Below, piece by piece: positions 1 through 56,828 of a DNA stretch of 56,828 bases. Both the position numbers and the translations under genes were made by a program. Source of the DNA: Frigoribacterium sp. CFBP 13712. Lineage in GTDB: Bacteria; Actinomycetota; Actinomycetes; Actinomycetales; Microbacteriaceae. The stretch lies in the NCBI RefSeq assembly GCF_014842255.1, contig NZ_JACYVH010000011.1, forward strand, positions 4,092 through 60,919. Reading direction: 5' to 3'. Under the pieces are notes generated by a model that was not told the origin of the DNA, did not search any database, and saw only the letters and a list, made by a program, of their open reading frames with translations. Every line of letters starts with the position of its first letter. Position 1 is the first letter of the stretch.

Positions 1-43
1 GCAGGAGGCGCGGTTCGGCACTGCAGGAGGCGCGGTTCGCGAC
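1..43. repeat. Tandem pair of the GGAGGCGCG motif
   Basis: Two copies of a 22-base unit (gcaggaggcgcggttcg plus a few bases) lie head to tail at the window edge. They belong to the dispersed GGAGGCGCG family found throughout this window. No gene is visible on this side of position 129. Confidence 0.7.
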
Positions 44-128
44 ACGCACGCGAGGCACGACCCGCGAACGATCCCGGGTCCGCCCTGAGGCCGATGACAG
101 CACAGGGGCCGAGCGCGAGACTCGAGTC

Positions 129-431
129 ATGAGCTCAGTGGACGACGGCCGGATCGTGCGGCGCATCTTCGCCGGCCTGCTGGTCGTCGTGACCCTGCTC
201 GGTCTGGCGATCTTCTCGCTGGGGCGCGCCTCCTTCGCGGTGCTCGACGCGGAGGGGCAGGAGGCGCCCCCGTTCACGGTCTGCTCGGTCGACTACCCGA
301 CGTGCACCGATCCACAGCCCGTGCTCGTGATCTTCGGAGCGGCGATGATGATCGCCGCCCTCGTTGCGCTGATCAGCATGATCGCCTCGCGGCGTCGCCG
401 GCACCGCCCGGTGCGCCGCGCTCGCCGCTGA
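129..431 (+). CDS. Small two-TM membrane protein, hypothetical
   Basis: Encodes 100 residues. A hydrophobic segment lies at about residues 13-33 (RIFAGLLVVVTLLGLAIFSL) and a second at about 66-86, followed by an Arg-rich tail that should sit in the cytoplasm. Between them is a short extracytoplasmic loop with two Cys (CSVDYPTC) that could form a disulfide. I do not recognise the family. The ATG at 129 has only a weak ribosome site. It converges on the nucleobase permease with a 14-base gap. GC-rich third positions and the clear membrane topology argue that it is real. Confidence 0.6.
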   Translation: MSSVDDGRIVRRIFAGLLVVVTLLGLAIFSLGRASFAVLDAEGQEAPPFTVCSVDYPTCTDPQPVLVIFGAAMMIAALVALISMIASRRRRHRPVRRARR

Positions 432-445
432 CCGCCAGCCGCTGC

Positions 446-1849
446 TCAGGCGTCGCGGTCGGCCGCCGCCGGTGCGGACGGGCCGCGGACGGCGTCGTGC
501 GCCGACACGTCGCGGTCGACGCCGCCGTGGCGCCGCTGCTGCGACTCCGAGTTGAGCAGCAGGTTGAGCAGCACCGCGACGAGGGCCCCGGCGCTGATGC
601 CCGAGTCGAACACGATCGTGAACCAGGTCGGGAACTGCGCGTAGATGTCGGGGCTGACGGTCGGCAGCAGGCTGACACCCAGCGCCACCGCGACGATCAG
701 GATGTTCGAGTTGTTGAACTTCACCTTCGACAGCGTGCGGATGCCGCTCGCGGCGACCATGCCGAACAGTGCCACGCCCGCGCCGCCGAGCACCGCCAGC
801 GGCACCCCCTCGACGACGGCGCCCAGGGCGGGCACGAGCCCCAGCACGACGAGGATCACCCCGGCGAACGTCGCCACGTAGCGCGACCGCACGCCGGTGA
901 TGCTGACCAGGCCGACGTTCTGCGCGAACGCCGTGTAGGGGAACGTGTTGAAGACGCCGCCGATCACGGTCGAGAGGCCGTCGGCGCGCAGGCCGTCGGC
1001 GAGGCGGCGCGGGGTGACGGGCTCGTCGACGATCTCGCCGACCGCGATGATGTCGCCGGTCGTCTCGGTCATGATGACGAGGCCGACGATGCACATCGAC
1101 ACGATGGCGCTGATCGGGAACGTGGGCAGCCCGAAGTGGAAGGGCAGTGCGAGGCCGAACCAGGCGCTCTCGCCGACGCCGCTCCAGTCGGTGAGGCCGA
1201 ACGGCCACGCGACGAGTGTGCCGATCACGAGCCCCAGCAGGATGGACACCCGCTGGATCGCAGGAGGCGCGAACCGCTCGATCAGGATGATCAGCAGCAG
1301 GGTCCCCGCCGCGAACCCGATGTCGAGCGGGTCGCCGAAGTCCTCCGAGCCGGTGCCGCCGCCGACCCAGCCGGCCGCGACGTCCATCAGCGAGACGCCG
1401 ATGATGAGGATGACGGTGCCGGTGACGATCGGCGGGAAGAACCGGACGAGTCGGGAGAAGAACGGTGCGAGCAGCATCATGAACAGGCCGCTCGCGATGA
1501 CGGAGCCGTAGATCGCGGTGATGCCGTACTCGCCGCCGATCACGATCATCGGGCCGACGGCGGCGAAGGTGCAGCCCTGCATCAGCGGCAGCCGCACCCC
1601 GAAGCGCCAGAATCCGACCGACTGGATGATGGTCGCGATGCCGGCGACGAGCAGGTCGGCGCTGATCAGGTACGCGATGTCGCCCGGCTCGAGCTCGCCC
1701 ATGCCGACGAGCGCACCACCGACGATCAGCGGAACCGCGACGGCGCCCGCGTACATCGCGAGCACGTGCTGCAGCCCGAGAGGGAACAGCCGTCGCAGCG
1801 GCGGGATCCGGTCGACGGGTCGCTTCTCGGCCTGCGCGCTCGCGGTCAT
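446..1849 (-). CDS. NCS2 family nucleobase:cation symporter (uracil/xanthine permease type)
   Basis: A 467-residue polytopic inner-membrane protein beginning with the NCS2 signature region (LFPLGLQHVLAMYAGAVAVP at about residues 23-42) and continuing with about 14 hydrophobic segments. Length and order fit the UraA/PbuX/UacT family, which imports uracil, xanthine or urate with a proton or cation; which substrate cannot be told from sequence alone. The ATG at 1849 has a strong Shine-Dalgarno AGGAGG (1854-1859) four bases upstream. It is transcribed alone, away from the M23 peptidase, with about 240 bases of divergent upstream region in which I see no clear operator or riboswitch. Confidence 0.9.
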   Translation of the reverse strand: MTASAQAEKRPVDRIPPLRRLFPLGLQHVLAMYAGAVAVPLIVGGALVGMGELEPGDIAYLISADLLVAGIATIIQSVGFWRFGVRLPLMQGCTFAAVGPMIVIGGEYGITAIYGSVIASGLFMMLLAPFFSRLVRFFPPIVTGTVILIIGVSLMDVAAGWVGGGTGSEDFGDPLDIGFAAGTLLLIILIERFAPPAIQRVSILLGLVIGTLVAWPFGLTDWSGVGESAWFGLALPFHFGLPTFPISAIVSMCIVGLVIMTETTGDIIAVGEIVDEPVTPRRLADGLRADGLSTVIGGVFNTFPYTAFAQNVGLVSITGVRSRYVATFAGVILVVLGLVPALGAVVEGVPLAVLGGAGVALFGMVAASGIRTLSKVKFNNSNILIVAVALGVSLLPTVSPDIYAQFPTWFTIVFDSGISAGALVAVLLNLLLNSESQQRRHGGVDRDVSAHDAVRGPSAPAAADRDA

Positions 1850-2087
1850 GGGGCCTCCTGATCAGGGTGAGTCGGTCATGACGACGCTAGGGCACGCGCG
1901 TTGCCCGGATGATGCCGTCATGTGTCGCCTGTGTGAAGGCGGCCGCGTCCGCGACCTGTGGAGAAGCCTGATTCTCATCCCCAGATCGGGGCAGGTCCGC
2001 CTCGCGGCATGAGCATGACGATAGTGTTGGGACTCCGCCGACAGTCGTCGAGCGATGTCCCAGCCGTTCTGACCGAGACTGAGAAGC

Positions 2088-3383
2088 ATGCACCGCCTCA
2101 CCACGCGCCCCGACCTCTCCGGGTCGACCCGCGCCTCCCGGGGACGACGTGCCGTCACGACCGCGATCGCCGTCGTCGGGCTCAGCGTCGCCTCGCTCCT
2201 CGCCGTCCCCGCTCAGGCCCAGGCCGCCGCCCCCACCTGGGCTCAGATCGAAGAGGCCCGCAGCTCCGAGACGGCCAAGAAAGACGCCATCGCCGACGTC
2301 GAGGCCGCACTCGAGGCGGCCACGAACCGTGCCGCCGACGCCCAGAAGGCCGCCGACGCCGCCGGTGAGGTGCTCGTCGACGCGCAGGCCGCGGCCGACG
2401 AGGCCAACGCGACCTACGCCGCCATCCAGAAGAAGGCCGACGAGGCCCGCGAGCAGTCCGCCTCGTCCGAGATCGTCGTCGGTCAGGCCGCCGCGATGCT
2501 CGCCCGCCCGACCAGCACCGGCACCCTCAGCGACCTGCTGTCGTCCGGCGCCGGCGCCGAAGACACCCTCCGTGGCCTCAGCATGTCGAGCAAGGTCGGC
2601 GAGAATCTCGACGCGCTGCGCGATCGCGCCATCGCCGCCGACAACCTCGCGACCTCGCTCGCCGACCAGGCCAAGGTCGCCCTCGACGAGCGCGACCGCC
2701 TGACCGACGAGGCCGACGCCGCCCTCGACGAGGCCGTCACCGCCAACGAGGCCGCCAAGGCCGACGCGTCGAAGATCGACACCGAGAAGGCCACGCTGGC
2801 CGCCCAGCTCGTCGTGCTGCAAGACGACCGCATCTCGATGGAGCAGGCCTTCGCCCAGGCGCAGGCCGCCGAGGCGGCGGCCGCCCAGGCGAAGCTCCAG
2901 GCCGGCGCCGCGGGCACCGGCCCGATCAGCGTCGGTGCGGGCTCCGGCCCCGGCACCACGCAGCCCGACCCCGGCACCGGCTGGGTCGCCGCGATCCGCT
3001 CGTTCGGCTCGTACCAGGCGTACGGCTACCGCGTGCACCCGATCACGGGCGAGTACAAGCTGCACGCCGGTGCCGACTTCGGCGCCTCGTGCGGCACGCC
3101 GATCTACTCGATCGCCGCCGGCACCGTCTCGTACGCGGGCCCCGCCGGCGGGTACGGCAACCTCGTGATCATCGACCACGGCAACGGCATCAGCAGCGCT
3201 TACGGGCACATGGAGTCGTCGGGCATCTTCGTGTCGCAGGGTCAGACCGTGACCCCCGGTCAGAACATCGCGGGCGTCGGCACGGCCGGCGGCTCGACGG
3301 GCTGCCACCTGCACCTCGAGGTCCGTCAGAACGGGCTCGCCACCGACCCCGTCGCCTACCTCGCCACGCAGGGCGTCCGCTAG
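2088..3383 (+). CDS. Secreted M23 family metallopeptidase with N-terminal coiled coil
   Basis: 431 residues. A long signal peptide (Arg-rich start, hydrophobic core, AQAQA cleavage region near residue 45) is followed by an Ala/Glu/Asp-rich coiled coil (about 50-260), a Gly/Pro linker, and a C-terminal LytM/M23 domain (about 305-425). Zinc ligands are visible as His326 and Asp330 in HAGADF and His409 in HLHLE. Proteins of this plan cleave peptidoglycan cross-links or activate other hydrolases at division (EnvC-like); here it should act outside the membrane. Its stop codon overlaps the stop of the convergent LysR gene in a shared CTAG (3380-3383), leaving no room for a terminator between them. 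Confidence 0.92.
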   Translation: MHRLTTRPDLSGSTRASRGRRAVTTAIAVVGLSVASLLAVPAQAQAAAPTWAQIEEARSSETAKKDAIADVEAALEAATNRAADAQKAADAAGEVLVDAQAAADEANATYAAIQKKADEAREQSASSEIVVGQAAAMLARPTSTGTLSDLLSSGAGAEDTLRGLSMSSKVGENLDALRDRAIAADNLATSLADQAKVALDERDRLTDEADAALDEAVTANEAAKADASKIDTEKATLAAQLVVLQDDRISMEQAFAQAQAAEAAAAQAKLQAGAAGTGPISVGAGSGPGTTQPDPGTGWVAAIRSFGSYQAYGYRVHPITGEYKLHAGADFGASCGTPIYSIAAGTVSYAGPAGGYGNLVIIDHGNGISSAYGHMESSGIFVSQGQTVTPGQNIAGVGTAGGSTGCHLHLEVRQNGLATDPVAYLATQGVR

Positions 3384-4327
3384 GCGGAAGCGCTCTCGGG
3401 TCTGATGCGCGCCTCCTCGGAGGCCGCCTCCGTCACCCGGGCCTCCGCCAGCAGCTCGTCGACCACGACGCGCACCGCCGGCCGCACGGCCCGATCCGGC
3501 CGCATCAGCGCCTCGATGTGCCGCCCGGCGCGCACCTCCTCGAGCGTCGCCAGATGGAACCGCCCCCGCGCGCGCCCCGCCGACGTGTGCCGCGGCACGA
3601 GTGCGATCCCGTGCCCCGCGGCCACCATGTTCTCGAGCAGCGGCAGGTGCAGGCTGCGGTGCACCACATCCGGAGTCACGCCCGCCCGCAATGCCATCGC
3701 CGTCAGCACGCGGTCGATCGGGAACCCGACCGGGACGCCGATCCACGGTTCGCCGATCACGTCGCCGAGCGTCACGCGCTCACGCCCCGCCAGCGGGTGA
3801 TCGAGCGGCATCGCCACCTCGAGCGGTTCGCGCAGCAGCGCCACGATCGCCAGCCGCGACCGATCAGGAGGCGCGACCCCGTCCGACCGGTGCCCCACCA
3901 CCACATCGAAGTCCGCGGTCAGCCGGGCGAACTCGTCTTCGCTCACGTCGCGGTCGTCGATCTCGACCTCGATGCCGGCGTGGGCCCGCATCCGCGTCAC
4001 GAACCCGGGCAGCAGCAGCTCGGCCGCCGACGGGAACACCGCGAGCCGCACGACGCCCGTCGCGCCGGTCCGCACCGCCTCGAGCGTCGCCTCCGCCTCG
4101 GCCACCGCCGTCGACACCGCCAAGGAGGCGCGCGCGAGCGCCTGCCCCGCCTCCGTCAGTCGCACCCCGCGTCCGACCCTCTGCACCAGCTCGACGCCGA
4201 GCTGGCGCTGCAGGGTCTTGAGCTGCTGCGACACGGCACTCGGCGAGCGGTGGGTCGCCGCCGCGACGGCCGTGACGCTGCCGCGTTCGTCGAGTTCGCG
4301 GAGGAGTTCGAGATGCTGCACGTCCAT
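3380..4327 (-). CDS. LysR family transcriptional regulator
   Basis: 315 residues. An N-terminal winged helix-turn-helix (about 1-60, with AAATHRSPSAVSQQLKTLQR as recognition region) is followed by a LysR effector-binding domain (about 88-300). The gene starts 71 bases from the divergent EamA transporter at 4399, the classical arrangement in which a LysR protein controls its neighbour and itself from the shared intergenic region. The effector is unknown. The 3' end overlaps the M23 gene by four bases (CTAG). Confidence 0.93.
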   Translation of the reverse strand: MDVQHLELLRELDERGSVTAVAAATHRSPSAVSQQLKTLQRQLGVELVQRVGRGVRLTEAGQALARASLAVSTAVAEAEATLEAVRTGATGVVRLAVFPSAAELLLPGFVTRMRAHAGIEVEIDDRDVSEDEFARLTADFDVVVGHRSDGVAPPDRSRLAIVALLREPLEVAMPLDHPLAGRERVTLGDVIGEPWIGVPVGFPIDRVLTAMALRAGVTPDVVHRSLHLPLLENMVAAGHGIALVPRHTSAGRARGRFHLATLEEVRAGRHIEALMRPDRAVRPAVRVVVDELLAEARVTEAASEEARIRPESASA

Positions 4328-4398
4328 GAAGGGAGGCTACAAGGTCACCGCGGAGATGCGCGCTGGTCCTGCAACGAGGCATCCGCCAGCATGGAGCC

Positions 4399-5427
4399 AT
4401 GAGCCCCCGCGACCGCCTCCTCGCCCTCGTCGTCGCGGTCTGCTGGGGTGTGAACTTCCCGATGACGGCGCTGGCGCTCGAGCACTTCCCGCCGTTCCTC
4501 CTCGTCGCGGTGCGCTTCGCTCTGCTGGCGGTGCCGACCCTGCTGCTGGTGCCGCGTCCGGCGATCCCGTGGCCGCGCCTCCTGATGGTCGGGTTCGCCC
4601 TCGGCATCTTGCAGTTCGGGTTCCTGTACCTCGGGATGGAGGCCGGCATGCCGTCGGGCCTCGCGTCGCTCGTGCTGCAGGCGTCCGCGCCGTTCACCGT
4701 GGTGATCGCGGGCATCTGGCTGCGCGAGCGCATCACGCGACGGCAGGCGATCGGTATCGGCGTGGCGGTGCTGGCGCTGGCCGTGATCGCGGTGCACAGG
4801 TCTCAGGTCGCGGCGCTGCTGCCCGTCGTGCTGTGTCTCTGCGCGGCGCTCGGCTGGGCGCTCGGCAACGTGGCGGTGCGGCGGGCCGCCGCTCCGAACC
4901 CGCTGCATCTGACGCTGTGGATGTCGGTCGTGCCGCCGATCCCGATGCTGGCGCTGTCGTTCGTCGTCGAGGGCCCGGAACGGATCGGCCAGACGTTCGC
5001 GACGCTGTTCACCCTCGACGCGCTGCCGTCGATCGTGGGGCTGCTCTACGTGGTGCTCGTCGCGACGGTGCTCGGTTACGGGCTGTGGACGCGCCTCCTC
5101 GCCACGTATCCGTCGAGCACAGTCGCGCCGTTCTCGATGCTCGTCCCGGTGATCGGCGTGCTGGCGTCATGGCTCGCCTTCGACGAGGTGCCCGACGTGG
5201 TCGAGCTCGTGGCGGGCGTGGTCGTGGTCGGCGGGGTGCTCTACGCGAGCCGCGTGGTGCGAGCCGTGCCGGAGCGGGGCGCCCGGTCTGCGGCGGAGTC
5301 GGAGCCCCCTGCCGGAGGTGCGGCGGAGGTCGGCACCGCGGGTGTCGTCCCGCAGGGCGGTGCCGGCACCGGTGCCGCCACCGGTGCTGCGGCCGGGGCG
5401 GCGCCCGAGGCCGGGGTGCGCCGCTAG
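4399..5427 (+). CDS. EamA/DMT family transporter
   Basis: 342 residues with ten predicted membrane segments arranged as two EamA repeats (about 5-135 and 145-285). Members of the drug/metabolite transporter superfamily export amino acids or other small metabolites. A glutamate and small-residue-rich start (ALVVAVCWGVNFPMTALALE) matches the first helix of the family. The C-terminal 60 residues are a low-complexity Ala/Gly/Thr tail with no membrane segment, longer than usual. It is divergent from a LysR regulator that probably controls it, and it shares a four-base CTAG stop overlap with the next, convergent gene. Confidence 0.9.
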   Translation: MSPRDRLLALVVAVCWGVNFPMTALALEHFPPFLLVAVRFALLAVPTLLLVPRPAIPWPRLLMVGFALGILQFGFLYLGMEAGMPSGLASLVLQASAPFTVVIAGIWLRERITRRQAIGIGVAVLALAVIAVHRSQVAALLPVVLCLCAALGWALGNVAVRRAAAPNPLHLTLWMSVVPPIPMLALSFVVEGPERIGQTFATLFTLDALPSIVGLLYVVLVATVLGYGLWTRLLATYPSSTVAPFSMLVPVIGVLASWLAFDEVPDVVELVAGVVVVGGVLYASRVVRAVPERGARSAAESEPPAGGAAEVGTAGVVPQGGAGTGAATGAAAGAAPEAGVRR

Positions 5428-6107: not shown

Positions 6108-7040
6108 TCACCGCCGTGCGGGCGTGCGCGTCTCGAGCACCCGCTCGACGGTCCGCGTCGCGGCCGCGATGCCCTCGACGTCGACCTGGGCCAGCACCTC
6201 GCCGTAGTCGTGCGGCACCGTCAGCTGCCGCTGCCACTCGGCCTGGTACAGCGCCTCCAGGTACCCCGACGACTCCCGGCAGGCCGCGTCGGCCGTCGCC
6301 AGGCGGATCTCGTCGCTGCTGATCGGCGACGACGGATCGTCCGACCCGAACTCGGCCGCCATGTCGATCGTCGGCATCCCCGCGGGCGAGCGCGGCAGGG
6401 TCTCGGCCAGCGCCTCCGTCGCGAACGGCCCCGTGTCGAAGACGTCGGCGTCGATCAGGCAGCTCCGCCACTCGTCGGCGGTGTCGAGCACGCGGTCGTC
6501 GCGCCGCGCCTCCGAGAACGCGGCGTCGCCGAGCCGGATCGCGATCGACGACGTCAGGTCGTCCTGTGCCAGCTCGGGGTGCTCCGTCAGCACCTGGTCG
6601 CCGCACCTCATCCGGGCGTCGAACACGGGATCGGCGAACACCGTCGTCGAGTAGGTGCGCCAGGCCGTCGCCCCCGGGTCGTCGGTCGGCGCCACGTGGT
6701 AGCCGCGCGCCCGGGCGTCGGTCAGATCGAACGCCCGCACCGGCTGCGACTCGAGGGCGTTCGTCGCGGCGTCGACGTCCCGCCACGGGACCTCGACCCC
6801 CTCGAATCCCGCCGCCTGCAGGCACGGCTCGATCAGCAGCTCCTCGGCGTAGGTCAGCCTCGTCGTGCTCGGGCCGATGTAGGCGTCGAGCGGCATCAGC
6901 CACTCCGTGCGGTCCTGCTCGGGCGGGCTCGGCAGCGTGTAGGCCGCATTGGCGGGGATGCCGACCGCGATCACCCCGGCGACGACGACCCCGACGGCGA
7001 CCGCGGTGATCCGCTTGGCGAGCTGCTCTCGGCTGCTCAC
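6108..7040 (-). CDS. Secreted or membrane-anchored protein of a two-component operon
   Basis: 310 residues. An N-terminal hydrophobic segment (about 10-33, ending in NAA) looks like a signal peptide or anchor; the remainder is hydrophilic, with several Cys (EPCLQAAGF, RMRCGDQ, SCLIDA, ACRESSG) that may pair outside the cell. I do not recognise the family. The GTG start overlaps the stop of the response regulator by four bases (GTGA), so it is translationally coupled to it and is the third gene of the leftward operon 9128-6108. It may be a sensed or accessory extracytoplasmic partner of the kinase; that is inference from position only. Confidence 0.75.
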   Translation of the reverse strand: MSSREQLAKRITAVAVGVVVAGVIAVGIPANAAYTLPSPPEQDRTEWLMPLDAYIGPSTTRLTYAEELLIEPCLQAAGFEGVEVPWRDVDAATNALESQPVRAFDLTDARARGYHVAPTDDPGATAWRTYSTTVFADPVFDARMRCGDQVLTEHPELAQDDLTSSIAIRLGDAAFSEARRDDRVLDTADEWRSCLIDADVFDTGPFATEALAETLPRSPAGMPTIDMAAEFGSDDPSSPISSDEIRLATADAACRESSGYLEALYQAEWQRQLTVPHDYGEVLAQVDVEGIAAATRTVERVLETRTPARR

Positions 7041-7738
7041 CCGCGCCTCCGGTCGGGCCCGGACACCACGCCGTTCTCGTATGCGAAGACGACGATCTGC
7101 ACCCGGTTGCGCATCCCCAGCTTCTGCAGCACCGAGCGCACGTGGCTCTTAACCGTCGCCTCGCTGAGGTACGCCTCGGTCGCGATCTCGGTGTTGCTCA
7201 GGCCCTTCGCGACGAGCGTGAACATCTCGCGCTCGCGGGGCGACAGGGGCGCGAGCGGGTCGACCCGGGGCGGCGCGGTCGGCGGCACGGCGAACTCGTG
7301 CACGACGTCGAGTGCGGCCCCCGCGGTCGGCACCGGGTCGCCCGCGAACGCCGCGCGGATCGTCGTGATGACGTCGTCGGGCGTCGCGTCCTTCGTGAGG
7401 AACGCGTACGCCCCGGCCTTCAGCGCACCGAACACCGCTTCGTCCCGCTGGATCGTCGTCAGCGCCACGACCCGCGGCAGATCGTCGGGCGACACCCCCT
7501 CGAGGATGCGCGCCGTCGCCTCGAGCCCGTTCATCACCGGCATGCGGAGATCCATCAGCACGACGTCGGGCGACTCACGGGCGACGAGCTCGAGCGCCTC
7601 GCGCCCGTCGACGGCCGTGCCGACGCAAGCGAGGTCGGGCTGCGCCTCGATCAGCATCCGCAGACCCGAGGCGAAGAGCGGCTGGTCGTCGACGACGGCG
7701 ACGCGGATGGCGCGGGTCGGCTCGGTGAGGTCAGGCAT
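7037..7738 (-). CDS. LuxR/NarL-type response regulator
   Basis: 233 residues from the ATG at 7738. The receiver domain (about 11-125) shows the acidic pair Asp17-Asp18, the phospho-acceptor Asp63 (LMDLRMPVMNG), the Thr in ALTT and the Lys in FLTKDA. A C-terminal LuxR helix-turn-helix (about 165-228: LSPREREMFTLVAKGLSNTE) binds DNA. I chose the ATG at 7738 because homologues begin just before the receiver domain; a longer open frame to 7840 gives a non-homologous Arg/Leu/Pro-rich extension. It overlaps the histidine kinase stop by eight bases and the next gene by four, so kinase and regulator are translated together. Confidence 0.93.
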   Translation of the reverse strand: MPDLTEPTRAIRVAVVDDQPLFASGLRMLIEAQPDLACVGTAVDGREALELVARESPDVVLMDLRMPVMNGLEATARILEGVSPDDLPRVVALTTIQRDEAVFGALKAGAYAFLTKDATPDDVITTIRAAFAGDPVPTAGAALDVVHEFAVPPTAPPRVDPLAPLSPREREMFTLVAKGLSNTEIATEAYLSEATVKSHVRSVLQKLGMRNRVQIVVFAYENGVVSGPDRRRG

Positions 7739-9128: not shown

Positions 9129-9221
9129 GCCGTCACGTTAGGGGAGGGTCGGGGTGCACCGCGCCTCCTCGGGGCCGTTTTCAACCCGGGGGCGCACGAC
9201 GGGGGTCTGTGGAGGAGACGA

Positions 9222-9255
9222 CGAGGGCGCACCCGCCGAAGCGGATGCGCCCTCG
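9222..9255 (-). terminator. Terminator of the superoxide dismutase gene
   Basis: Perfect 10-base stem (CGAGGGCGCA at 9222-9231 with its complement at 9246-9255) with a 14-base loop, placed 30 bases after the leftward sodA stop. Confidence 0.7.
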
Positions 9256-9285
9256 AGAGCAGCGATGCGGCTGCGGGGGACCGGA

Positions 9286-9909
9286 TCAGAAGCCGGTCAG
9301 CAGGCCCTGCGTCTTGGTGGTCGCGGCGGCGTAGCGGGCGGCGACGTTGTCCCAGTTGACGATGTTCCAGAAGGCCTTGACGTAGTCGGCGCGGACGTTC
9401 TGGTAGTCGAGGTAGTAGGCGTGCTCCCACACGTCGAGCATCAGCAGCGGCACGAGGCCGAACGGCACGTTGCCCTGCTGGTCGAAGAGCTGGAAGACGC
9501 TGAGCTTCTCGCCGAGCACGTCGTACGCGAGCACCGACCAGCCGGAGCCCTGCACGCCGAGAGCGGTCGCGGTGAAGTGCGCCTTGAACTTCTCGAGGTC
9601 GCCGAACTCGGAGCCGATGGCCTCGAGCAGGTCGCCGGTGGGCTCGCCGGTCTCGGGGGTCAGGTTCGTCCAGAAGATCGAGTGGTTGACGTGGCCGCCG
9701 AGGTTGAAGGCCAGGTCCTTCTCGAGCTTGTTGACGTTGGCGAGGTCGCCGGTCTCACGGGCCTCGGCGAGGGCGGCGTTGGCCGTGTTCGCGCCGGTCA
9801 CGTACGTGTTGTGGTGCTTGGAGTGGTGCAGCTCCATGATCTTCGCGCTGATGTGCGGCGCGAGCGCTGCATAGTCGTAAGGGAGATCGGGAAGGGTGTA
9901 CTCAGCCAT
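9286..9909 (-). CDS. sodA: Superoxide dismutase, Mn/Fe family
   Basis: 207 residues. Converts superoxide to hydrogen peroxide and oxygen in the cytoplasm. Metal ligands are visible as His28, His76 (in the stretch HVNHSIFW), Asp159 and His163 (DVWEHAYY). Gly71-Gly72 before HVNHS and Gln146-Gly in QQGNVPF resemble manganese-type enzymes, but cambialistic use cannot be excluded. The ATG at 9909 gives the normal family length; the frame stays open upstream without homology. It is monocistronic, divergent from the molybdopterin oxidoreductase, and closed by the hairpin at 9222-9255. Confidence 0.96.
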
Positions 9910-10063
9910 GTGGGGTCCTTTCGAGTTGACCTCCGTCCACCGTACGACCTCCACCCATGTCGGGGTCAACGTTCTCCCAGCGTGATCGCAGATACGGCGA
10001 CGCCGTGGTGGTGCGAAGCTGGGGGCGACGAGAGACCGAACAGCAGCACCCAGGAGGCGCACC

Positions 10064-10642: not shown

Positions 10643-11631
10643 GCCCCGTCGGTGACTCGTTCGACTGGCTGCCCGGCACGATCGTCGCAGCGTCCCCGCA
10701 GACCGGGCGGGCGCGGTCGCTGACGATCGCGGTGCCGGGTCTGCGGCCGGCTCGAGCCGGGCAGCACGTGGATCTGCGGCTCACCGCCGACGACGGGTAC
10801 ACGGCGGTGCGCTCGTACTCGCTGTCGGATGTGCGCGGCTCCCGACGGCCCGGAGGAGGCGCGGGTCGCGTCGCCGAGACGGGTGCGGATCCCGCGAGCC
10901 CAGGAGGCGCGGGTCGCGTCGTCGATGCGAGCCCGGTTCCCGCCGGCCCGGGAGGCGCGGGTCGTGCCCCGCAGATCGAGGTGACGGTCGAGCGGATGGA
11001 CGACGGCGAGGTGTCGCCCTACCTCGTCGACGCCGCCGAGCCCGGCGACCCGATCGAGGTCCGTGGCCCGATCGGCGGCTGGTTCGTCTGGCCGCCGACC
11101 GAGTTCGAGCCCGGCTCCGCCGTGCACGCCGTGCTGCCCGAGCCGGAGGGGGCCACGCCGGTGCGCGAGGCGCCCGTGCAGCTGATCGGCGGCGGGTCGG
11201 GCCTCGCTCCGCTCATGGCGATGGTGCGGGCGCGGAGCCTCGAGGCGCCTCCGTTCCGTCTGCTCGCGTCGGTGCGCGGCCCGCGGTCGCGCTGGTTCGC
11301 GGGGGAGCTCGACGAGGCCGTGCGCGCCTCCTCGGGGGCTGGTGGTGCTGCTGGTGCTGGTGCTGAGGCGGGTGCGGGTGCCGGCGCTCGTGCCGGCGGG
11401 GCGGGGTTGCGGGTCGACTGGGTCTACACGCGCGAGGTGCCGGAGGGGGAGGCGCGGCCGGCGAGGCGCCTGACCCGCGACGAGCTCGAGTCGCTCGTGC
11501 TGCCCGCCGTCGAGCACCCGCTCGTCTACGTCTGCGGGGCGAACTCGTTCGTCGAGGCCGTGGCGGGGTGGCTGGTCGAGCTCGGTCACGCGCCGACCCG
11601 CGTGCGCACGGAGCGCTTCGGCGGCGTGTGA
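10639..11631 (+). CDS. FAD/NAD(P)-binding ferredoxin-reductase-like protein
   Basis: 330 residues from a GTG that overlaps the previous stop by four bases. It has the FNR layout: FAD-binding barrel with RSYSLSD (about residue 56), a glycine-rich nucleotide-binding turn GGGSGLAPLMAMVRAR (about 183-198), and a C-terminal VCGANSFVE that contacts NAD(P). It probably passes electrons from NAD(P)H to the molybdopterin partner. Two inserts are unusual: residues about 65-113 contain three GGAGR-type repeats produced by three copies of the GGAGGCGCGGGTCG motif, and residues about 231-258 are a Gly/Ala-rich stretch. Both sit where loops are expected, so the fold may survive. Confidence 0.88.
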   Translation: MSPVGDSFDWLPGTIVAASPQTGRARSLTIAVPGLRPARAGQHVDLRLTADDGYTAVRSYSLSDVRGSRRPGGGAGRVAETGADPASPGGAGRVVDASPVPAGPGGAGRAPQIEVTVERMDDGEVSPYLVDAAEPGDPIEVRGPIGGWFVWPPTEFEPGSAVHAVLPEPEGATPVREAPVQLIGGGSGLAPLMAMVRARSLEAPPFRLLASVRGPRSRWFAGELDEAVRASSGAGGAAGAGAEAGAGAGARAGGAGLRVDWVYTREVPEGEARPARRLTRDELESLVLPAVEHPLVYVCGANSFVEAVAGWLVELGHAPTRVRTERFGGV

Positions 11632-15110: not shown

Positions 15111-17420
15111 TGTATGAGCACCGGGCACCCTGACAGCACCCCGCACGCCGACCACGCAGGAGGTGCGGGTCACGACGACCACGCCGGTCACGACGCGCAC
15201 GCCGGTCACGACGCGCACGCCGGTCACGACGCGCACGCTGGGCACGGCGGACACGGGCACGGCGGACACGGGCACGGCGGACACGGCGGGCACGGCGATC
15301 ACGCGGCGCAGTTCCGCGACAAGTTCTGGGTGAGTCTGGTCGTGGCGATCCCGGTGATCGTCTTCAGCTCGATGTTCGCGGGGCTGCTCGGCTACGACGT
15401 GCCCGAGTTCCCCGGCTCGACGTGGATCTCGCCGGTGCTCGGCACGTTCCTGTTCTTCTGGGGCGGCTGGCCGTTCCTCAGCGGAGGGGTCGCCGAGGCC
15501 CGCGCCAAGCAGCCCGGCATGATGCTGCTCATCGCGATGGCGATCACCGTCGCCTTCGCCGCGAGCTGGGCGACCCAGCTCGGCATCGGCGGGCTCGACC
15601 TCGACTTCTGGTGGGAGCTCGCCCTCCTCGTCGTCATCATGCTGCTCGGCCACTGGACCGAGATGCGGGCGCTCGGCGCCGCCTCCGGAGCCCTCGACGC
15701 CCTCGCGGCGCTGCTGCCCGACACCGCCGACCGCGTCGTCTCGCCCGCCGCCACCCACGCCGCCGCGACCGCCCCCGCCGCGACCGCCCCCGCCACCGGC
15801 GACACCGCCCACGCCGCCCCCGCCACCGGCGACACCGCCAACGCCAACGCCACCCCCGCCGCAGGCGGCACCGAGCCCGTCGCGATCGCCGATCTGGTGG
15901 TCGGCGACATCGTGCTCGTCCGCTCGGGCGGGAGGGTCCCCGCCGACGGCAGCATCGTCGACGGCGAGGCCGCGATGGACGAGTCGATGATCACGGGCGA
16001 GTCCCGCACGGTCTCCCGCGCTGTCGGCGACCGCGTCGTCGCCGGAACGGTCGCCACCGACGGCACCCTGCGCGTGCGGGTCGAGGCGGTCGGCGAGGCC
16101 ACGGCGCTCGCCGGGATCCGCCGTCTCGTGGCCGAGGCGCAGGCGTCGTCGTCGCGGGCTCAGGCGCTCGCCGACCGGGCCGCCGCCCTGCTGTTCTGGT
16201 TCGCCGCGGGCGCGGGCGTCATCACCTTCGTCGTCTGGCTGCTGATCGGCGACGTCGACCAGGCCATCACGCGCACGGTCACCGTGCTCGTCATCGCCTG
16301 CCCGCACGCCCTCGGCCTCGCGATCCCGCTCGTGATCGCCATCTCGACGGAACGCGCCGCGCGCGCCGGAGTCCTCGTCAAAGACCGCCTCGCCCTCGAG
16401 CGCATGCGTCTGGTCGACACCGTCCTGTTCGACAAGACGGGCACCCTCACGCGGGGCGAGCCGGTCGTGACGGACGTGACGACCGCCTCCTCGGCCTCCG
16501 GCACCGCCACCGCCTCCTCCGACCACCGCCGGCACGCCGCGCTCCGCCTCGCGGCCGCCGTCGAGCGCGACAGCGAGCACCCGCTGGCCCGGGCGATCGT
16601 CCGCGCCGAGGCCGAGTCGCCTCAGGCCCGACCCGAGGAGGCGCGGGTCGACGTCACCGACTTCCGCACCGTCACGGGACGCGGCGTCGAGGGCACGATC
16701 GACGGCGTGCGGGTCGCGGTCGGCGGCCCGGGTCTGCTGCGCGACGGCGACCACGAGGTGCCCGACGAGATCGCCTCCGCGACCGCATCATGGTCGGACG
16801 AGGGCGCGACCGTGCTCTACCTCCTGCGCGACGGCGCGGTCGAGGCGGCCTTCGCCCTGCGCGACGAGGTGCGCCCCGAGTCGGCCGAGGCGGTGCGACG
16901 TCTGCACGAGGCGGGCGTGCGCGTCGCCATGATCACCGGCGACGCCCGGCCGGTCGCCGAGGCCGTCGGGCGCGAGCTCGGCATCGACGAGGTGTTCGCC
17001 GAGGTGCGCCCCGACGAGAAGGACGCCCGCGTGGCCGAGCTCCAGCAGCGCGGCCAGAGGGTCGCCATGGTGGGCGACGGCGTGAACGACGCTCCGGCGC
17101 TCGCCCGCGCCGACGTCGGCATCGCGATCGGCGCCGGGACGGACGTCGCCGTCGAGTCGGCCGGCGTCGTGCTCGCCTCGAACGACCCGCGGGCCGTGCT
17201 GTCGGTCATCTCGCTGTCGCGGGTCGGCTACCGCAAGATGATCCAGAACCTCGTCTGGGGCGCCGGCTACAACGTGCTGTCGGTGCCGCTCGCCGCCGGA
17301 GTCCTGGCAGGGGTCGGCTTCGTCCTCTCGCCCGCGGCCGGCGCGGTGCTGATGAGCCTGTCGACCGTGATCGTCGCGCTGAACGCGCAGCTGCTGCGTC
17401 GCTGGAAGCCCGCCGCCTGA
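15108..17420 (+). CDS. copB: Copper-translocating P-type ATPase, CopB-like (CPH type)
   Basis: 770 residues (or 768 from the ATG at 15114). The cytoplasmic N terminus is His-rich (about 20 His in GHDAHAGHD-type repeats, residues 12-65) and has no CxxC metal-binding domain. The transmembrane metal site is CPH (Cys at about 398) rather than CPC, typical of the 1B-3 CopB subgroup that exports Cu(II)/Cu(I)/Ag(I). The phosphorylation motif DKTGTLT is at about 442; the actuator MITGES and hinge GDGVNDAPAL are present. An expanded Ala/Thr/Gly insert lies between the first TM group and the actuator (about 208-258). There is no clear Shine-Dalgarno, so leaderless translation is possible. Regulation is probably by copper through the operator at 15092. 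Confidence 0.93.
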   Translation: MCMSTGHPDSTPHADHAGGAGHDDHAGHDAHAGHDAHAGHDAHAGHGGHGHGGHGHGGHGGHGDHAAQFRDKFWVSLVVAIPVIVFSSMFAGLLGYDVPEFPGSTWISPVLGTFLFFWGGWPFLSGGVAEARAKQPGMMLLIAMAITVAFAASWATQLGIGGLDLDFWWELALLVVIMLLGHWTEMRALGAASGALDALAALLPDTADRVVSPAATHAAATAPAATAPATGDTAHAAPATGDTANANATPAAGGTEPVAIADLVVGDIVLVRSGGRVPADGSIVDGEAAMDESMITGESRTVSRAVGDRVVAGTVATDGTLRVRVEAVGEATALAGIRRLVAEAQASSSRAQALADRAAALLFWFAAGAGVITFVVWLLIGDVDQAITRTVTVLVIACPHALGLAIPLVIAISTERAARAGVLVKDRLALERMRLVDTVLFDKTGTLTRGEPVVTDVTTASSASGTATASSDHRRHAALRLAAAVERDSEHPLARAIVRAEAESPQARPEEARVDVTDFRTVTGRGVEGTIDGVRVAVGGPGLLRDGDHEVPDEIASATASWSDEGATVLYLLRDGAVEAAFALRDEVRPESAEAVRRLHEAGVRVAMITGDARPVAEAVGRELGIDEVFAEVRPDEKDARVAELQQRGQRVAMVGDGVNDAPALARADVGIAIGAGTDVAVESAGVVLASNDPRAVLSVISLSRVGYRKMIQNLVWGAGYNVLSVPLAAGVLAGVGFVLSPAAGAVLMSLSTVIVALNAQLLRRWKPAA

Positions 17421-21727: not shown

Positions 21728-21839
21728 ACCGCGGGGAGGCCCGGTCAGCCCGGCAGGAGGCGCGCTCGGCACCGCGGGGAGGCCCGGTCAGCCCGGCAGG
21801 AGGCGCGCTCGGCACCGCGGGGAGGCCCGGTCAGCCCGG
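21728..21839. repeat. 43-base tandem repeat, 2.6 copies
   Basis: A unit starting ACCGCGGGGAGGCCCGGTC begins at 21728, 21771 and 21814. Copies 1 and 2 are identical and each contains CAGGAGGCGCGCTCGG of the dispersed motif family. The third is cut short by the ribosome binding site of the next gene. It lies between divergent dcd and the quinone oxidoreductase, so it must contain or flank both promoters. Confidence 0.9.
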
Positions 21840-25355: not shown

Positions 25356-25393
25356 CCGCAGGGGTCGTGAGCGGCCGAGGAGGCGCGGGTCGC

Positions 25394-36357: not shown

Positions 36358-36410
36358 CCGCGCCTCCTGCCGTGCGGCGCAGGCCTCTCAGGAGAGCCGA
36401 GGAGGCGCGG
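36358..36410. terminator. Hairpin built from two facing GGAGGCGCG motifs
   Basis: CCGCGCCTCCT at 36358-36368 and its perfect complement AGGAGGCGCGG at 36400-36410 frame a 31-base loop, between convergent genes. Two copies of the dispersed motif in opposite orientation make this possible terminator. Confidence 0.7.
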
Positions 36411-37713: not shown

Positions 37714-39447
37714 ATGAGCACGACACGCACCGCACCCACCGCCGACACCGCAAGCACCGCATGCACCGCACCCCCCGCAGCCCGCACCGTCCGCATCACG
37801 ACCGCCGCCGCCGACCTGTTCGGCTGGGACGATCTGCACGCCGGGCAGCTCGAGGCGATCGAGGCCGTCGTCGCGGGTCGCGACACCCTGGGCATCATGC
37901 CGACCGGGTTCGGCAAGTCGGCGATCTACCAGGTCGCCGGTGCCGTGCTCGACGGGCCGACCGTCGTCGTGTCGCCCCTCATCGCGTTGCAGGCCGATCA
38001 GGTCGCCGGGCTGGTCGGCCGCCCCGATGCGCCCTCGGCCGTCGCCATCAACTCCGGTCACACCGACGCCGAGAACGACGCCGGCTGGCAGCGTCTGGCC
38101 GCGGGCGAGATCACGTACGTGTTCCTCGCCCCCGAGCAGCTCGCGCGAGACGAGACCGTCGACCGGCTGAGAGACGCCGGAGTCGCCCTCGTCGTGGTCG
38201 ACGAGGCCCACTGCGTGTCGTCCTGGGGTCACGACTTCCGGCCCGACTACCTGCATCTCGGCGAGATCGTCGAGCGCCTCGGCCGCCCGACGGTGCTGGC
38301 GCTGACGGCGACCGGGTCGGGGCCCGTGCGCGACGAGGTGGTCGAACGGCTGCGACTGCGCGATCCGCTGATCGTCAGCCGCGGCTTCGATCGTCCCAAC
38401 CTCGCCCTCGAGGTGGTGCGCCACGAGGACGACGACGAGAAGATGCGCGCCGTCGTCGAGCAGGTGGCCGCCTCGACCACGCCCGGCATCGTCTACGTGG
38501 CGACCCGCAGAGCGACCGAGGCCTACACGGCGGCGATCGCGGAACGCCGCCCCGACCGGACGGTGGTCGGCTACCACGGCGGGCAGCGGTCCGCCGAGCG
38601 CGGGCAGCTGCACGAGAGGTTCCACGCCGGCGAGGTCGACGTCGTCGTGGCGACCAGCGCCTTCGGCATGGGCATCGACAAGCCCGACGTGCGCTTCGTC
38701 GTGCACGCCGACGTGCCCGACTCGCTCGACGCCTACTACCAGGAGATCGGGCGAGCCGGTCGTGACGGCGACCCGGCCACCGCCACCCTGCACTACCGGC
38801 CCGAGGACCTGTCGCTGCGGTCGTTCTTCGCCTCGGGGCTGCCCGGCCGCGCCGATCTGCGAGGGGTCTTCACGGCGCTGTCGGCCGCCGGACGCCCGGT
38901 GACCCGTGCCGAGGTCGCGGGTCAGCTCGCGCTCGGTTCGCGCACGGTGTCGCGCCTCATCGATCTGCTGCTCGAGGGCGGGGCGCTGACCGAGTCGACG
39001 GACGGGTTCGAGCCGGTCGCCGGTCTCGACGCGGCGGAGGCGGCGGGCGCGGCTCGCGAGGTCGCCCAGACCCGCGAGCGCGTCGCGACGTCCCGGATCG
39101 AGATGATGCGCACCTTCGCCGAGGCCGCCGGCTGCCGCCGCCGGTTCCTGCTCGGCTACTTCGGCGAGGACTCGCCCGAGCACTGCGGCAACTGCGACCT
39201 CTGCCTGTCCGACGACCGCGCCGGGATCGATGCCGAGGAGGCGCGCTCGGGAGACGAGGAGGCGCACCCCACCGACACCGCGCCTCCTGCATTCGCCACC
39301 GACGCCCGCGTCGTCCATGCGACCTGGGGCGAGGGCACGGTCATGGGCACCGACGACGACCGGATGACCGTCTTCTTCGAGAGCCAGGGCTACAAGGTGC
39401 TCTCCGTCGCGGACGTGCTCGAGCGGGGGCTGCTGACCCCGGCCTGA
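37714..39447 (+). CDS. RecQ family ATP-dependent DNA helicase
   Basis: 577 residues. Unwinds DNA 3' to 5' in repair and recombination. Walker A is MPTGFGKSAIY (about 63-73); the DEAH box is at 163-166 within VVVDEAHCVSSWGHDFRPDY, and the RecQ-specific motif and helicase motif VI (QEIGRAGRDGDP) are present. A zinc-binding set Cys474, Cys491, Cys494, Cys497 marks the RecQ-Ct domain. There is no HRDC domain; instead the last 45 residues form a small basic beta domain (ATWGEGTVMGTDDDRMTVFF) like the DUF3553/UvrD C-terminal module. The ATG at 37714 has GAGGA six bases upstream. No LexA box is seen here. Confidence 0.93.
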   Translation: MSTTRTAPTADTASTACTAPPAARTVRITTAAADLFGWDDLHAGQLEAIEAVVAGRDTLGIMPTGFGKSAIYQVAGAVLDGPTVVVSPLIALQADQVAGLVGRPDAPSAVAINSGHTDAENDAGWQRLAAGEITYVFLAPEQLARDETVDRLRDAGVALVVVDEAHCVSSWGHDFRPDYLHLGEIVERLGRPTVLALTATGSGPVRDEVVERLRLRDPLIVSRGFDRPNLALEVVRHEDDDEKMRAVVEQVAASTTPGIVYVATRRATEAYTAAIAERRPDRTVVGYHGGQRSAERGQLHERFHAGEVDVVVATSAFGMGIDKPDVRFVVHADVPDSLDAYYQEIGRAGRDGDPATATLHYRPEDLSLRSFFASGLPGRADLRGVFTALSAAGRPVTRAEVAGQLALGSRTVSRLIDLLLEGGALTESTDGFEPVAGLDAAEAAGAAREVAQTRERVATSRIEMMRTFAEAAGCRRRFLLGYFGEDSPEHCGNCDLCLSDDRAGIDAEEARSGDEEAHPTDTAPPAFATDARVVHATWGEGTVMGTDDDRMTVFFESQGYKVLSVADVLERGLLTPA

Positions 39448-44064: not shown

Positions 44065-44554
44065 GGGGCTCCTCGTGAGAACGGCCTCGAACGAGGCTCG
44101 TCCGACGATACGTCTCCCGCCTCGACTCGGCCCGGCTTGCGCCGGAGAGCGAACAGCGGGACGGCGGCGCACGACCCTGTGGAGGGATCGGCGCCGCGAG
44201 ATCGGTGCCCAGCAGGATCCCGGATCGTCGTTGATCCGAGAGCCCGCGCCGAGGTTCGGGTCCTCGACGGGTGTCGTCCGCTGCGTCGACGCGTGATCTC
44301 GGCGGGTTTCGGGTACTCGCCGGGAACGCCGTCCGCAGTGGACCGGACACACGGGTTGCTAGGCACCCGGGAGAGCATTCGGAGGCGTCGGCGCCCCGGT
44401 TGGGGGGTATCCGGATGTGTTCGCGAATCGGATAGCGAGGCCGTTCCGTGGCCAGCTGGCGATTACTCTAGCGCGCCTCCGGCGACCACCCTTCGCGCGC
44501 CTCCTGCGGCTCCCTTCGCGCGCCTCCTGAAGGCGTCGACGTGCGCGGTCGGGC
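44065..44554. other. Intergenic region with three motif copies
   Basis: 490 bases without a convincing gene. The left part must hold the promoter of the leftward GMC operon. At 44470-44523 three copies of CGCGCGCCTCC(T) follow each other at 22-24-base spacing, just beyond the end of the NIPSNAP-like gene. A short dyad GGATCC...GGATC at about 44215-44240 is seen; nothing else. Confidence 0.5.
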
Positions 44555-51895: not shown

Positions 51896-52429
51896 ATGAC
51901 CGGATCGAACGATCTTCGACCTGCAGGAGGCGCGGCGGGCGACGGAGCCGTCGCCGCGCCTCCTGCGGACCTCGACGAGGTCGACCGCCGCCTCCTCGAC
52001 GTGCTCGCCACCGACGGCCGCCTGTCGAACGCGGCGCTCGCCGCGGCGGTCGGCGTCGCGCCGTCGACCGCGCACACGCGACTCCGGTCGCTGATCGACC
52101 GCGGGGTGATCACCGGGTTCCTGACGAGCGTCGACCAGCGTCGCATCGGCCGCCCGCTGCAGGCGGTCATCGGCGTGACCCTGCGCCCGGGGTCGCGGCA
52201 GGCGGCGATCACCGCGTTCTCGGAGGCCGTGCGGAGTCTGCCCGAGGTGCTGCAGGTGTTCTTCCTCGGTGGGCACGACGACTTCATCGTGCACATCGCC
52301 GTCTCGGACTCGAGCGAGATCCGCACCTTCGTCGTCGACCATCTCTCGGCCCAGCCGAGCGTGGCGTCGACGCGGACGAGCATCGTCTTCGACTACCACC
52401 GCAACGGGGTCGCGGCCTCGTTCCGCTGA
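51896..52429 (+). CDS. Lrp/AsnC family regulator (AldR-like)
   Basis: 177 residues from the ATG at 51896, with GAGAGG eight bases upstream; an earlier in-frame ATG at 51857 is possible. A 25-residue linker is encoded by the long hairpin at 51923-51966. The helix-turn-helix follows (about 30-75: LSNAALAAAVGVAPSTAHTRLRSL), then the RAM/AsnC ligand domain (about 85-170). It is divergent from ald. Confidence 0.93.
   Translation: MTGSNDLRPAGGAAGDGAVAAPPADLDEVDRRLLDVLATDGRLSNAALAAAVGVAPSTAHTRLRSLIDRGVITGFLTSVDQRRIGRPLQAVIGVTLRPGSRQAAITAFSEAVRSLPEVLQVFFLGGHDDFIVHIAVSDSSEIRTFVVDHLSAQPSVASTRTSIVFDYHRNGVAASFR
51923..51966. repeat. Long hairpin of facing GGAGGCGCG motifs inside a gene
   Basis: Arms GCAGGAGGCGCGGCG (51923-51937) and its perfect complement (51952-51966) surround an inner dyad CGACGG-AG-CCGTCG. 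It encodes the poorly conserved linker before the helix-turn-helix of the Lrp protein. Confidence 0.85.
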
Positions 52430-56028: not shown

Positions 56029-56514
56029 CTACGCGGGGAGCGACGCCTCGATCAGCGACACGATCTCAGGGGCGTCGGGTTCGGTGGTCGGTCGGAAGCG
56101 GTGCACCGCGCCTCCGGGGGTGATCACGAACTTCTCGAAGTTCCACTTCACCTTGCCGGCCTTGCCGTCGGCGTCCGCCGCCTTCTTCAGCTCGGTGTAG
56201 AGCGGGTGCTCGTTGCGCCCGTTGACCTTGATCTTCTCCATCATCGGGAACGTCACGCCCCAGGTCGCCGAGCAGTACTCGTCGATCGCCTCGGACGACC
56301 CCAGCTCCTGCAGGAACTGGTTGCTCGGGAACCCGAGCACCGTGAAGCCGCGCTCGCCGTAGGTCTTCTGCAGCTCCTCGAGCTTCTCGTACTGCGGAGC
56401 CAGACCGCAGCGCGAGGCGACGTTGACGACCAGCACCACCTTGTCGCTGTAGGCGCCGAAGGTCGTGCTGTCGCCGCGCAGGGTGGTCAGGTCGATGGTG
56501 TCGAGTTCGCTCAT
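56029..56514 (-). CDS. Glutathione peroxidase family protein
   Basis: 161 residues. Reduces hydrogen and lipid peroxides; in actinobacteria, which lack glutathione, thioredoxin is the likely reductant. The active site is Cys36 (VASRCGL, cysteine not selenocysteine), Gln66 (GFPSNQF) and Trp124-Asn125 (VKWNFEKF); Cys81 may be the resolving cysteine. The ATG at 56514 gives normal length. It is a single gene, convergent with the glycosyltransferase. Confidence 0.96.
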   Translation of the reverse strand: MSELDTIDLTTLRGDSTTFGAYSDKVVLVVNVASRCGLAPQYEKLEELQKTYGERGFTVLGFPSNQFLQELGSSEAIDEYCSATWGVTFPMMEKIKVNGRNEHPLYTELKKAADADGKAGKVKWNFEKFVITPGGAVHRFRPTTEPDAPEIVSLIEASLPA

Positions 56515-56613
56515 GGCCCCGAGGGTACGCCGCGCGGATCGGCGGAAGCCTCCGCGAGCGGCCAGCCGCCCCGCGCCCCGCGCCGGGCCGCGCCCCGCCC
56601 CGCACCCCCGGGG

Positions 56614-56673
56614 TCGATGAGTCACGACTCGCCGCGGGGTCGGGAGGGTGCGCGGCGAGTCGTGACTCATCGA
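56614..56673. repeat. Perfect 23-base palindrome with GAGTCACGAC arms
   Basis: Arms at 56614-56636 and 56651-56673 are exact reverse complements around a 14-base loop (GGGTCGGGAGGGTG). It is the same family as 21024-21085. It lies upstream of the peroxidase gene, so it is not its terminator. The surrounding 56515-56828 shows no gene. Confidence 0.9.
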
Positions 56674-56711
56674 GCGGGCGAGCAGGGGGCGGGCGTGCGG
56701 GCGCACGGGAA

Positions 56712-56753
56712 AACCCCACCTCGCGAAGCCGTGAGGCCTTGCGGGGTGGGGTT
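56712..56753. terminator. Hairpin near the right edge
   Basis: AACCCCACCTCGC (56712-56724) pairs with GCGGGGTGGGGTT (56741-56753) at 12 of 13 positions, with AAAA before and TT after, a usual factor-independent layout in either direction. It probably ends a gene beyond the window. Confidence 0.6.
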
Positions 56754-56828
56754 CCACCGGGAACACGGGCCCCGGCCGGGGGCCGGAGCCCGAGTCGTCG
56801 TACTGAGAAGCGATGCCGCCGGAGCGGC

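Follow-up and report, generated by a model that had tools for sequence, protein, structure and literature searches.

Uptake sequences are documented in the Neisseriaceae and the Pasteurellaceae. The neisserial DNA-uptake sequence (DUS), as described in passages of PMC2397512, is stringently conserved in otherwise permissive regions (97% identity for the word against ~85% for the average aligned sequence, with 71% of sites exactly conserved), is spaced by 1.1-1.5 kb and occurs as inverted pairs that terminate transcription. Eight DUS dialects share a 3-nt CTG core, and the uptake signal sequence (USS) of the Pasteurellaceae is a ~9-bp word present genome-wide, with subtypes in the family (both from parts of PMC3630211). 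Micrococcus luteus has homologues of comEA and comEC, and its transformation depends on Flp pili (PMC6370729, in part); a term search of the texts of PMC4322843 and PMC8467076 returned no statement on uptake specificity in this species. Closer to the present case, two freshwater species of Microbacteriaceae are naturally transformable (PMC11577799, in part). Here, we analysed a 56,828-nt stretch of DNA (~73% GC; hereafter the window) from another member of this family, Frigoribacterium sp. CFBP 13712 (of a genus of leaf-dwelling bacteria; genome of 3.16 Mb), in which a short non-palindromic word, GGAGGCGCG, is dispersed in large excess.

We consider that GGAGGCGCG is probably the Frigoribacterium dialect of a DUS-like signal in Microbacteriaceae. 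As for the neisserial DUS, the word is short and non-palindromic, is present in hundreds to thousands of copies on both strands with dialects among relatives, displays sites far more conserved than their permissive flanks and spaced by ~1 kb, and forms inverted pairs with predicted hairpins. It differs from the DUS in belonging to another phylum with a Gram-positive envelope, in being a GGA-type rather than a CTG-core word, and in that the core shared between dialects is weaker, the Frigoribacterium word being long and stringent while several others are centred on a hexamer. The likeness is one of sequence features, a ComP-type receptor being known for the DUS. The Pasteurellaceae USS is also a genome-wide word of ~9 bp with subtypes in the family, and the differences are the same as for the DUS. 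With M. luteus, Frigoribacterium shares the class of genes involved (T2SSE, T2SSF and Tad-domain genes, a ComEA-like gene and ComEC).

The 8-mer GGAGGCGC matches the window 81 times, 40 on the + strand and 41 on the - strand, where the original prediction had counted about 75 copies (~40 top, ~37 bottom) and claimed a several-fold excess over chance. Both the count and the excess hold: 100 dinucleotide-preserving shuffles of the window gave 14.2 +/- 3.8 matches, none of them reaching 81, and a second-order Markov model of the window predicts 7.0. The core is the 10-mer AGGAGGCGCG, often followed by GGTCG. The 9-mer GGAGGCGCG is found 66 times (34 on +, 32 on -), dispersed over the window as part of a genome-wide set, and the longer forms AGGAGGCGCG, GGAGGCGCGGGTCG and GAGGAGGCGCGGGTCG 45, 16 and 7 times, respectively. 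Over the whole genome, AGGAGGCGCG reaches 724 + 768 = 1,492 copies against 17 + 16 = 33 for the reversed word. The excess thus persists in the rest of the genome, and neither a higher-order Markov model nor a codon model, the two explanations that the original prediction had named, reproduces the count.

To a first approximation, since genes were called by a crude GC-frame method and coding and intergenic counts are therefore approximate, the excess is observed in both compartments. Called Frigoribacterium genes, 1,024 kb in total, contain 613 copies of GGAGGCGCG against 123.2 +/- 11.4 after synonymous codon shuffling within genes, and the 160 kb between genes contain 225 copies against 5 of the reversed word. 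These counts were redone without a 20.9-kb stretch present twice in the set (locus L009, the start of L149/L150), which gave 632 against 129.9 in genes and 228 against 5 between genes when doubled, and which was kept in the pools used below for one-letter variants, GGATGCCG in Frigoribacterium genes, the locally G-richer strand and intergenic gap types. Other Frigoribacterium stretches in the pooled set are orthologous to each other, so that pooled counts are not independent. The excess is independent of base composition and codon usage. It is also sharply confined to the exact word: 21 of its 27 one-letter variants are at most 1.5-fold enriched, compared to 13.2-fold for GGAGGCGCG itself, the six enriched ones being altered at the last position (2.7 to 5.6-fold) or at the sixth and eighth positions (1.9, 3.2 and 2.2-fold). 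Some factor reads GGAGGCGCG with high precision.

The sites are maintained at fixed positions in otherwise permissive DNA. We aligned 177 kb of this genome to orthologous DNA of the relative G303 (identity 0.870). Among 136 alignable GGAGGCGCG sites, 102 are intact in G303 (18 more are not alignable), against 25% of GC-matched 9-mers and 16/39 (41%) of permuted words (p 0.0002). The surplus over GC-matched controls is observed both in genes (71/91 vs 26%, p 1e-24) and between genes (31/45 vs 21%, p 6e-12). In the more distant G110, 32 of 88 sites are intact compared to 16% of GC-matched words, 66 sites being not alignable. The extra conservation spans the nine bases and little beyond; the flanks are below the local average identity, at 0.81-0.86 vs 0.877 in genes and 0.70-0.82 vs 0.825 between genes. 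An all-or-none mode of site loss was not upheld, as 11 of the 34 non-intact sites carry a single mismatch.

The layout of the copies was determined on 237 kb of this genome, i.e. the window and nine 20-kb stretches, where the mean spacing of GGAGGCGCG is 1,193 bp. Intergenic DNA holds 1.99 copies per kb and genic DNA 0.58, a 3.4-fold difference. Of 190 copies, 115 lie within called genes, 53 sense and 62 antisense, and they occupy all six frames, in line with the claim of the original prediction that genic copies occur in every frame. Around recA, a single region, 9 copies are found in 20 kb, below the average of ~16 per 20 kb.

We then compared genomes across the family, in a survey of 299 genomes from 85 genera of Microbacteriaceae, including 7 of Frigoribacterium. 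All 7 Frigoribacterium genomes hold 513-1,492 copies of AGGAGGCGCG against 29-51 of the reversed word, and they are the only ones among the 299 with at least 100 copies plus a 5-fold excess; no genome of the 84 other genera passes both thresholds, the nearest being G055 with 216 vs 75. Named loci behave alike: all 12 from Frigoribacterium carry 9-13 GGAGGCGC per 10 kb, and the others 0-4.3, with three exceptions, Rathayibacter L036 (8.6) and L037 (5.7) and Curtobacterium L042 (5.4, two copies on a 3.7-kb contig). The nearest named relatives of a protein of the window belong to Frigoribacterium, and the locus L009, from Frigoribacterium sp. Leaf263, is letter-identical to a stretch within G303, of the same genus group, which links this group to the genus name. 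Separately, 113 kb of called genes from Curtobacterium L027-L030, L034 and L035 hold no GGAGGCGCG, 4.9 copies being expected from codon shuffling.

Stretches of other genera were subjected to a seedless screen and then to a screen for GGATG and GGAGG words, in which GGATGCCG came out on top many times. At the genome level, 148 of 292 genomes outside Frigoribacterium (at least one genome in 55 of the 84 genera) show GGATGCCG at 5-fold or more over its reversed control, and 68 at 10-fold or more; in other families of the order, the 5-fold level is reached in 2 of 139 genomes, with a median of 2.1. Against codon shuffling, the five enriched sets that were tested retain an excess of 3.0-3.8-fold, and Curtobacterium, Rathayibacter, Cellulomonas and Arthrobacter give 0.8-1.7-fold. 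Sites of GGATGCCG are over-conserved in three of the four genera tested (g63, g26 and g57). In Frigoribacterium the ratio is 1.3-2.3-fold, and 1.1-fold after codon shuffling; a remnant of GGATGCCG in this genus was accordingly dropped from consideration (142 copies in genes vs 128.8 expected). Genus g51 is the only one in which GGATGCCG falls below its reversed control, at 0.7-0.8-fold in both surveyed genomes (G051 and G121).

A second seedless screen, on 19 sets scored against synonymous shuffles, returned a top word containing GGA in 13 of them: GGATGCC types in three sets, GGATC types in G164, G034, G087 and G014, GGATGACC in G042, GGATGCGC in Schumannella, GGGATGCG in G020, CGGAGTCG in two Rathayibacter loci, AGGAGGCG in Frigoribacterium and, from one stretch, GGCAGGAA in G233. 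Whole-genome counts confirm that the dialect differs within two genera, in one surveyed species each. G164 holds 2,804 GGATCCSG and 485 GGATGCCG, its congeners G106, G215, G258 and G296 holding 442-787 and 2,303-4,831, respectively. Similarly, G042 holds 1,309 GGATGACC and 609 GGATGCCG, compared to 341-750 and 1,256-1,982 in G114, G170, G220 and G262. A third case, G052, is weaker (948 GGATGACC and 898 GGATGCCG, where two congeners have 304 and 380 of the former and 1,179 and 1,095 of the latter). GGATCCSG reaches 3,618 copies in G034 and 3,885 in G109; congeners served as the control for this word because its reversed words contain CTAG and make a poor control. By its letters, the Frigoribacterium word appears tied to the other words, GGAGGCGCG differing by one base from GGATGCGCG of Schumannella.

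Other repeated words were encountered in these screens. In L232 (G233, genus g70), GGCAGGAA is accompanied by GGAAGGTA and AAGGTACA, which may represent another dialect or a local repeat. The Rathayibacter loci L031, L033, L036 and L037 all contain a repeat around CGTATCGAGATC, with 14 copies of TCTCGATACG where 0.1 are expected, and 11 copies of ACAGACCACA, probably a tandem array, lie within one 21-kb Cryobacterium locus (L026 or L039).

With regard to the machinery, ComEC is found in 293 of the 299 surveyed genomes (one match in CFBP 13712) and a T2SSE/Tad ATPase in 297. The single T2SSE ATPase gene of this genome belongs to a locus with T2SSF and Tad-domain genes that adjoins a topoisomerase gene, an arrangement observed in the Frigoribacterium locus L210. 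In the congener locus L211 (G218), an HHH/SLBB (ComEA-like) gene adjoins ComEC. The ComEC frame of that locus (6871-10377, + strand, 1,168 aa) also matches, at its end, the DNA polymerase III delta C-terminal domain, and is thus a comEC-holA pair that is either fused or frame-joined. In the six other surveyed Frigoribacterium genomes, T2SSE-family ATPases number three each, one of them matched at E ~1e-139, which its score and its surroundings in L212, with T2SSF and N_methyl pilin genes, lead us to read as the PilB type. The gene content of CFBP 13712 and G303 suggests that the type IV pilus was lost in the clade that they form; as both have the Tad-type ATPase only, a type IV pilus was dropped as a requirement. 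We also compared the Tad-type loci of G164 and G106, of the same genus and of different dialect. Matched Tad proteins are 53-66% identical and neighbouring ones 66-84%, with several small reading frames unmatched; no receptor candidate emerged from this comparison of two loci, ComP itself not being part of the search.

By analogy with the known systems, we infer that the reader of the word could act in DNA uptake. Fragments bearing the word would be favoured by a DNA-binding component that acts either on the cell surface or when DNA enters by natural transformation; imported fragments would then be recombined by cells of the species, so that intact copies spread and replace mutated ones, a molecular drive that may operate with or without selection for the uptake of self-DNA. 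The likely machinery would be a Tad/Flp-type pilus with ComEA/ComEC, as in M. luteus, and a change of the reader would change the words as a set. Biased uptake followed by recombination would lead to hundreds to thousands of copies that gather in permissive DNA, equal strands, a spacing of ~1 kb, a sharply bounded conservation footprint, intergenic hairpin pairs and dialects specific to species. The wider reading is that Microbacteriaceae possess a DUS system of their own, whose words bear no relation in sequence to the neisserial and Pasteurellaceae ones, with GGA-type dialects (GGATGCCG in many genera, GGATCCSG, GGATGACC, GGATGCGC and GGAGGCGCG) read by a receptor of a Tad/Flp-type competence pilus, and with dialect changes that partly cut species off from gene exchange; taken together, we hold these propositions to be about as probable as their negation.

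Several observations weigh against biased uptake by such a pilus. ComEC and T2SSE/Tad genes are near-universal and also present in genomes without any detected word, so that their presence discriminates nothing. This genome and G303 have one T2SSE match and lack the one at E ~1e-139, yet they are the densest in the word among the stretches compared. The conservation is uneven: in G110 the sites are not significantly more often intact than permuted words (32/88 vs 5/26, p 0.15), no extra conservation of GGAGGCGCG is detected in the recA region of five genomes (19% vs 20%; 62 directed comparisons, 25 sites), and GGATGCCG sites of genus g85 show no over-conservation (23% vs 21%). In DNA that two relatives lack, the word is only slightly sparser (0.50 vs 0.84 per kb, the former from 5 sites over 10.1 kb). 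Lastly, the family of words is loose. Six of the 19 sets of the second screen have a top word without GGA (G045, G016, G121, G052, Curtobacterium and Frondihabitans), and 13/19 is not an unbiased rate because the sets were partly picked from earlier screen results. In Frigoribacterium, the hexamer GGAGGC itself shows almost no excess, G110 (395 vs 342) being the only genome where it ranks in the top four GGA hexamers, and GGATGA is outside the top four in G042; given this mixed hexamer excess, a core common to all words is a similarity, not a proof of descent.

Among the alternatives, one is that the word is a self-label or a chromosome-structuring site selected for its presence and read by another protein, such as a defence system that spares marked DNA, a condensin or nucleoid protein, or an orphan methyltransferase. 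Maintained sites and species-specific words do need a sequence-specific reader, and the link of that reader to uptake is a further step that we make. This explanation demands that specificity changed between congeners and that selection acts on scattered sites, numbering well in excess of a thousand, in regions of all kinds, which biased uptake accounts for by drive, an argument rather than a test; we regard it as unlikely.

The strongest single named rival is a Chi-like recombination hotspot, read in one orientation by a helicase-nuclease of RecBCD, AddAB or AdnAB type that switches from degradation to repair, with congeners differing because this protein changed. Many Chi motifs are strand-biased. 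Chi words are also short and non-palindromic, occur in excess and inside genes, and differ between species (in part from PMC3630211). The Frigoribacterium word is likewise short, oriented and over-represented in genes, and its maintained sites and rarity outside the genus would fit this role. It departs from Chi sites in three respects, the lack of strand bias, the 3.4-fold higher density between genes and the facing pairs that form predicted hairpins. Copies are balanced between strands within the 55 stretches holding at least 4 of them (heterogeneity chi2 37.6, 55 df), in a local test within stretches into which the positions of oriC and dif do not enter; 472 of 858 copies are on whichever strand is locally richer in G, a slight bias of the sort that a G-rich word produces by itself. 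Given the three departures, a Chi-like role appears rather doubtful. The original prediction had named three kinds of signal, DNA-uptake sequences, HIP1 and Chi/KOPS. The HIP1 of cyanobacteria is a palindrome and KOPS are strand-skewed; like both, GGAGGCGCG is a hyperabundant genome signal, but it is neither palindromic nor strand-skewed. A HIP1-like nature is thus not supported because the word differs from its reverse complement, nor is a KOPS-like one, or a Chi-like one in the E. coli sense, because strands are balanced within stretches. It is the DNA-uptake sequence that agrees with most of the computable tests.

A mobile or expanding short repeat, either a remnant of a miniature inverted-repeat transposable element (MITE) or repetitive extragenic palindrome (REP), or the slippage of tandem units, would account for the tandem arrays of the window described below and for the over-representation of gaps at non-intact sites (12/34 vs 1,859/~17,570 in controls, p 0.0001). 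Lost sites, however, correspond to substitutions or to gaps of no fixed length, so that the word is not mobile as a unit: the gaps at 11 sites have neither length nor boundary in common, and no gap is the exact 9-mer. With a conserved footprint of nine bases and 115 of 190 copies in called genes, this origin is very improbable. A transcription terminator as the main function draws on the close pairs (at most 70 bp apart) in 1.17 Mb, where facing copies are the commonest (60 '+-' against 35 '-+', 33 '--' and 29 '++') and many have extended predicted stems. Most copies nevertheless lie outside such pairs, and the densities in tandem (1.78 per kb) and divergent (1.39) gaps are near that in convergent ones (1.91), so that termination would be at most a secondary use; it may serve as such, and as the main function it is insufficient and extremely improbable. 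Finally, a by-product of high G+C (~73% GC in the window), codon usage or the Shine-Dalgarno-like AGGAGG, a common ribosome-binding motif, is refuted by the Markov models, the reversed-word control, synonymous shuffling and the intergenic counts, all of which fall short, and by the frequency of both orientations relative to genes, and has next to no chance of being correct.

In the open-access literature, no report of uptake sequences in Actinobacteria was found among the matches listed, as judged from titles and abstracts and with subscription papers mostly outside the scope, and a full-text search of the same literature returned none of these words as whole words among the matches listed. 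PMC10526031 states, in the passage concerned, that no uptake sequences have been reported for mycobacteria, and the passages of PMC2734928 on the subject discuss them for Neisseria and Pasteurellaceae only. If the Frigoribacterium word belongs to a DUS-like uptake system, which we believe to be somewhat better supported than the contrary, it would represent a third, independent origin of uptake sequences, in Gram-positive bacteria. Its many dialects and the two dialect differences within genera would offer a fresh system for old questions, namely whether drive or selection is behind the words, which component of a Tad-type pilus reads them and whether species split by dialect change, as well as a practical handle for transforming the leaf, soil and water bacteria of the family.

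Within the window, the three tandem arrays and two facing pairs of the original prediction are real, the pairs being predicted to fold as hairpins. The first array consists of two tandem copies 22 bp apart (1..43, + strand, copies at 4 and 26). The second (21728..21839, +) has 2.6 identical units with a 43-bp period and copies at 21756 and 21799; the third, initially placed at 44470-44523, spans 44471..44529 on the - strand with three copies and a 23-bp period. An additional array at 10854..10964 (+) has 2.3 units with a 48-bp period, and GGGTCG follows each of its copies (10855, 10903 and 10951). Of the facing pairs, the one at 36359..36409, originally given as 36358-36410, is made of copies at 36359(-) and 36401(+), and the 81-base piece folds at -54.2 kcal/mol, a value given without shuffled control; both copies are altered at the orthologous place in G303. 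The pair at 51926..51963 (51923-51966 in the original prediction) has copies at 51926(+) and 51955(-), a 22-base gap and a long predicted hairpin (-48.1 kcal/mol for a 65-base piece, likewise without shuffled control); compared to G303, its right copy is kept and its left copy falls in an alignment gap. A facing pair of 8-mers with a 14-base gap at 39258..39287 is also predicted to form a hairpin, at -21.9 kcal/mol over 55 bases. Examples of single copies are a genic one in the long form GAGGAGGCGCGGGTCG at 16637..16645 (+), inside a P-type ATPase gene (15108-17420), and an intergenic one, also in the long form, at 25379..25387 (+), ~40 bp upstream of a tRNA gene (25426-25496) that is the sole match of an Rfam search.

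The window contains further repeats. Outside called genes, two arrays at 26103-26584 and 34385-35203, with units of 93-223 bp and ~112 bp, respectively, centre on a different word, GAAGTGACGC / TTTTGCGTCACTTC, whose letters are unrelated to GGAGGCGCG. A 62-bp tandem repeat in 2.2 copies, containing CCCTTGCGCGGGCGG, is observed at 28322-28455.

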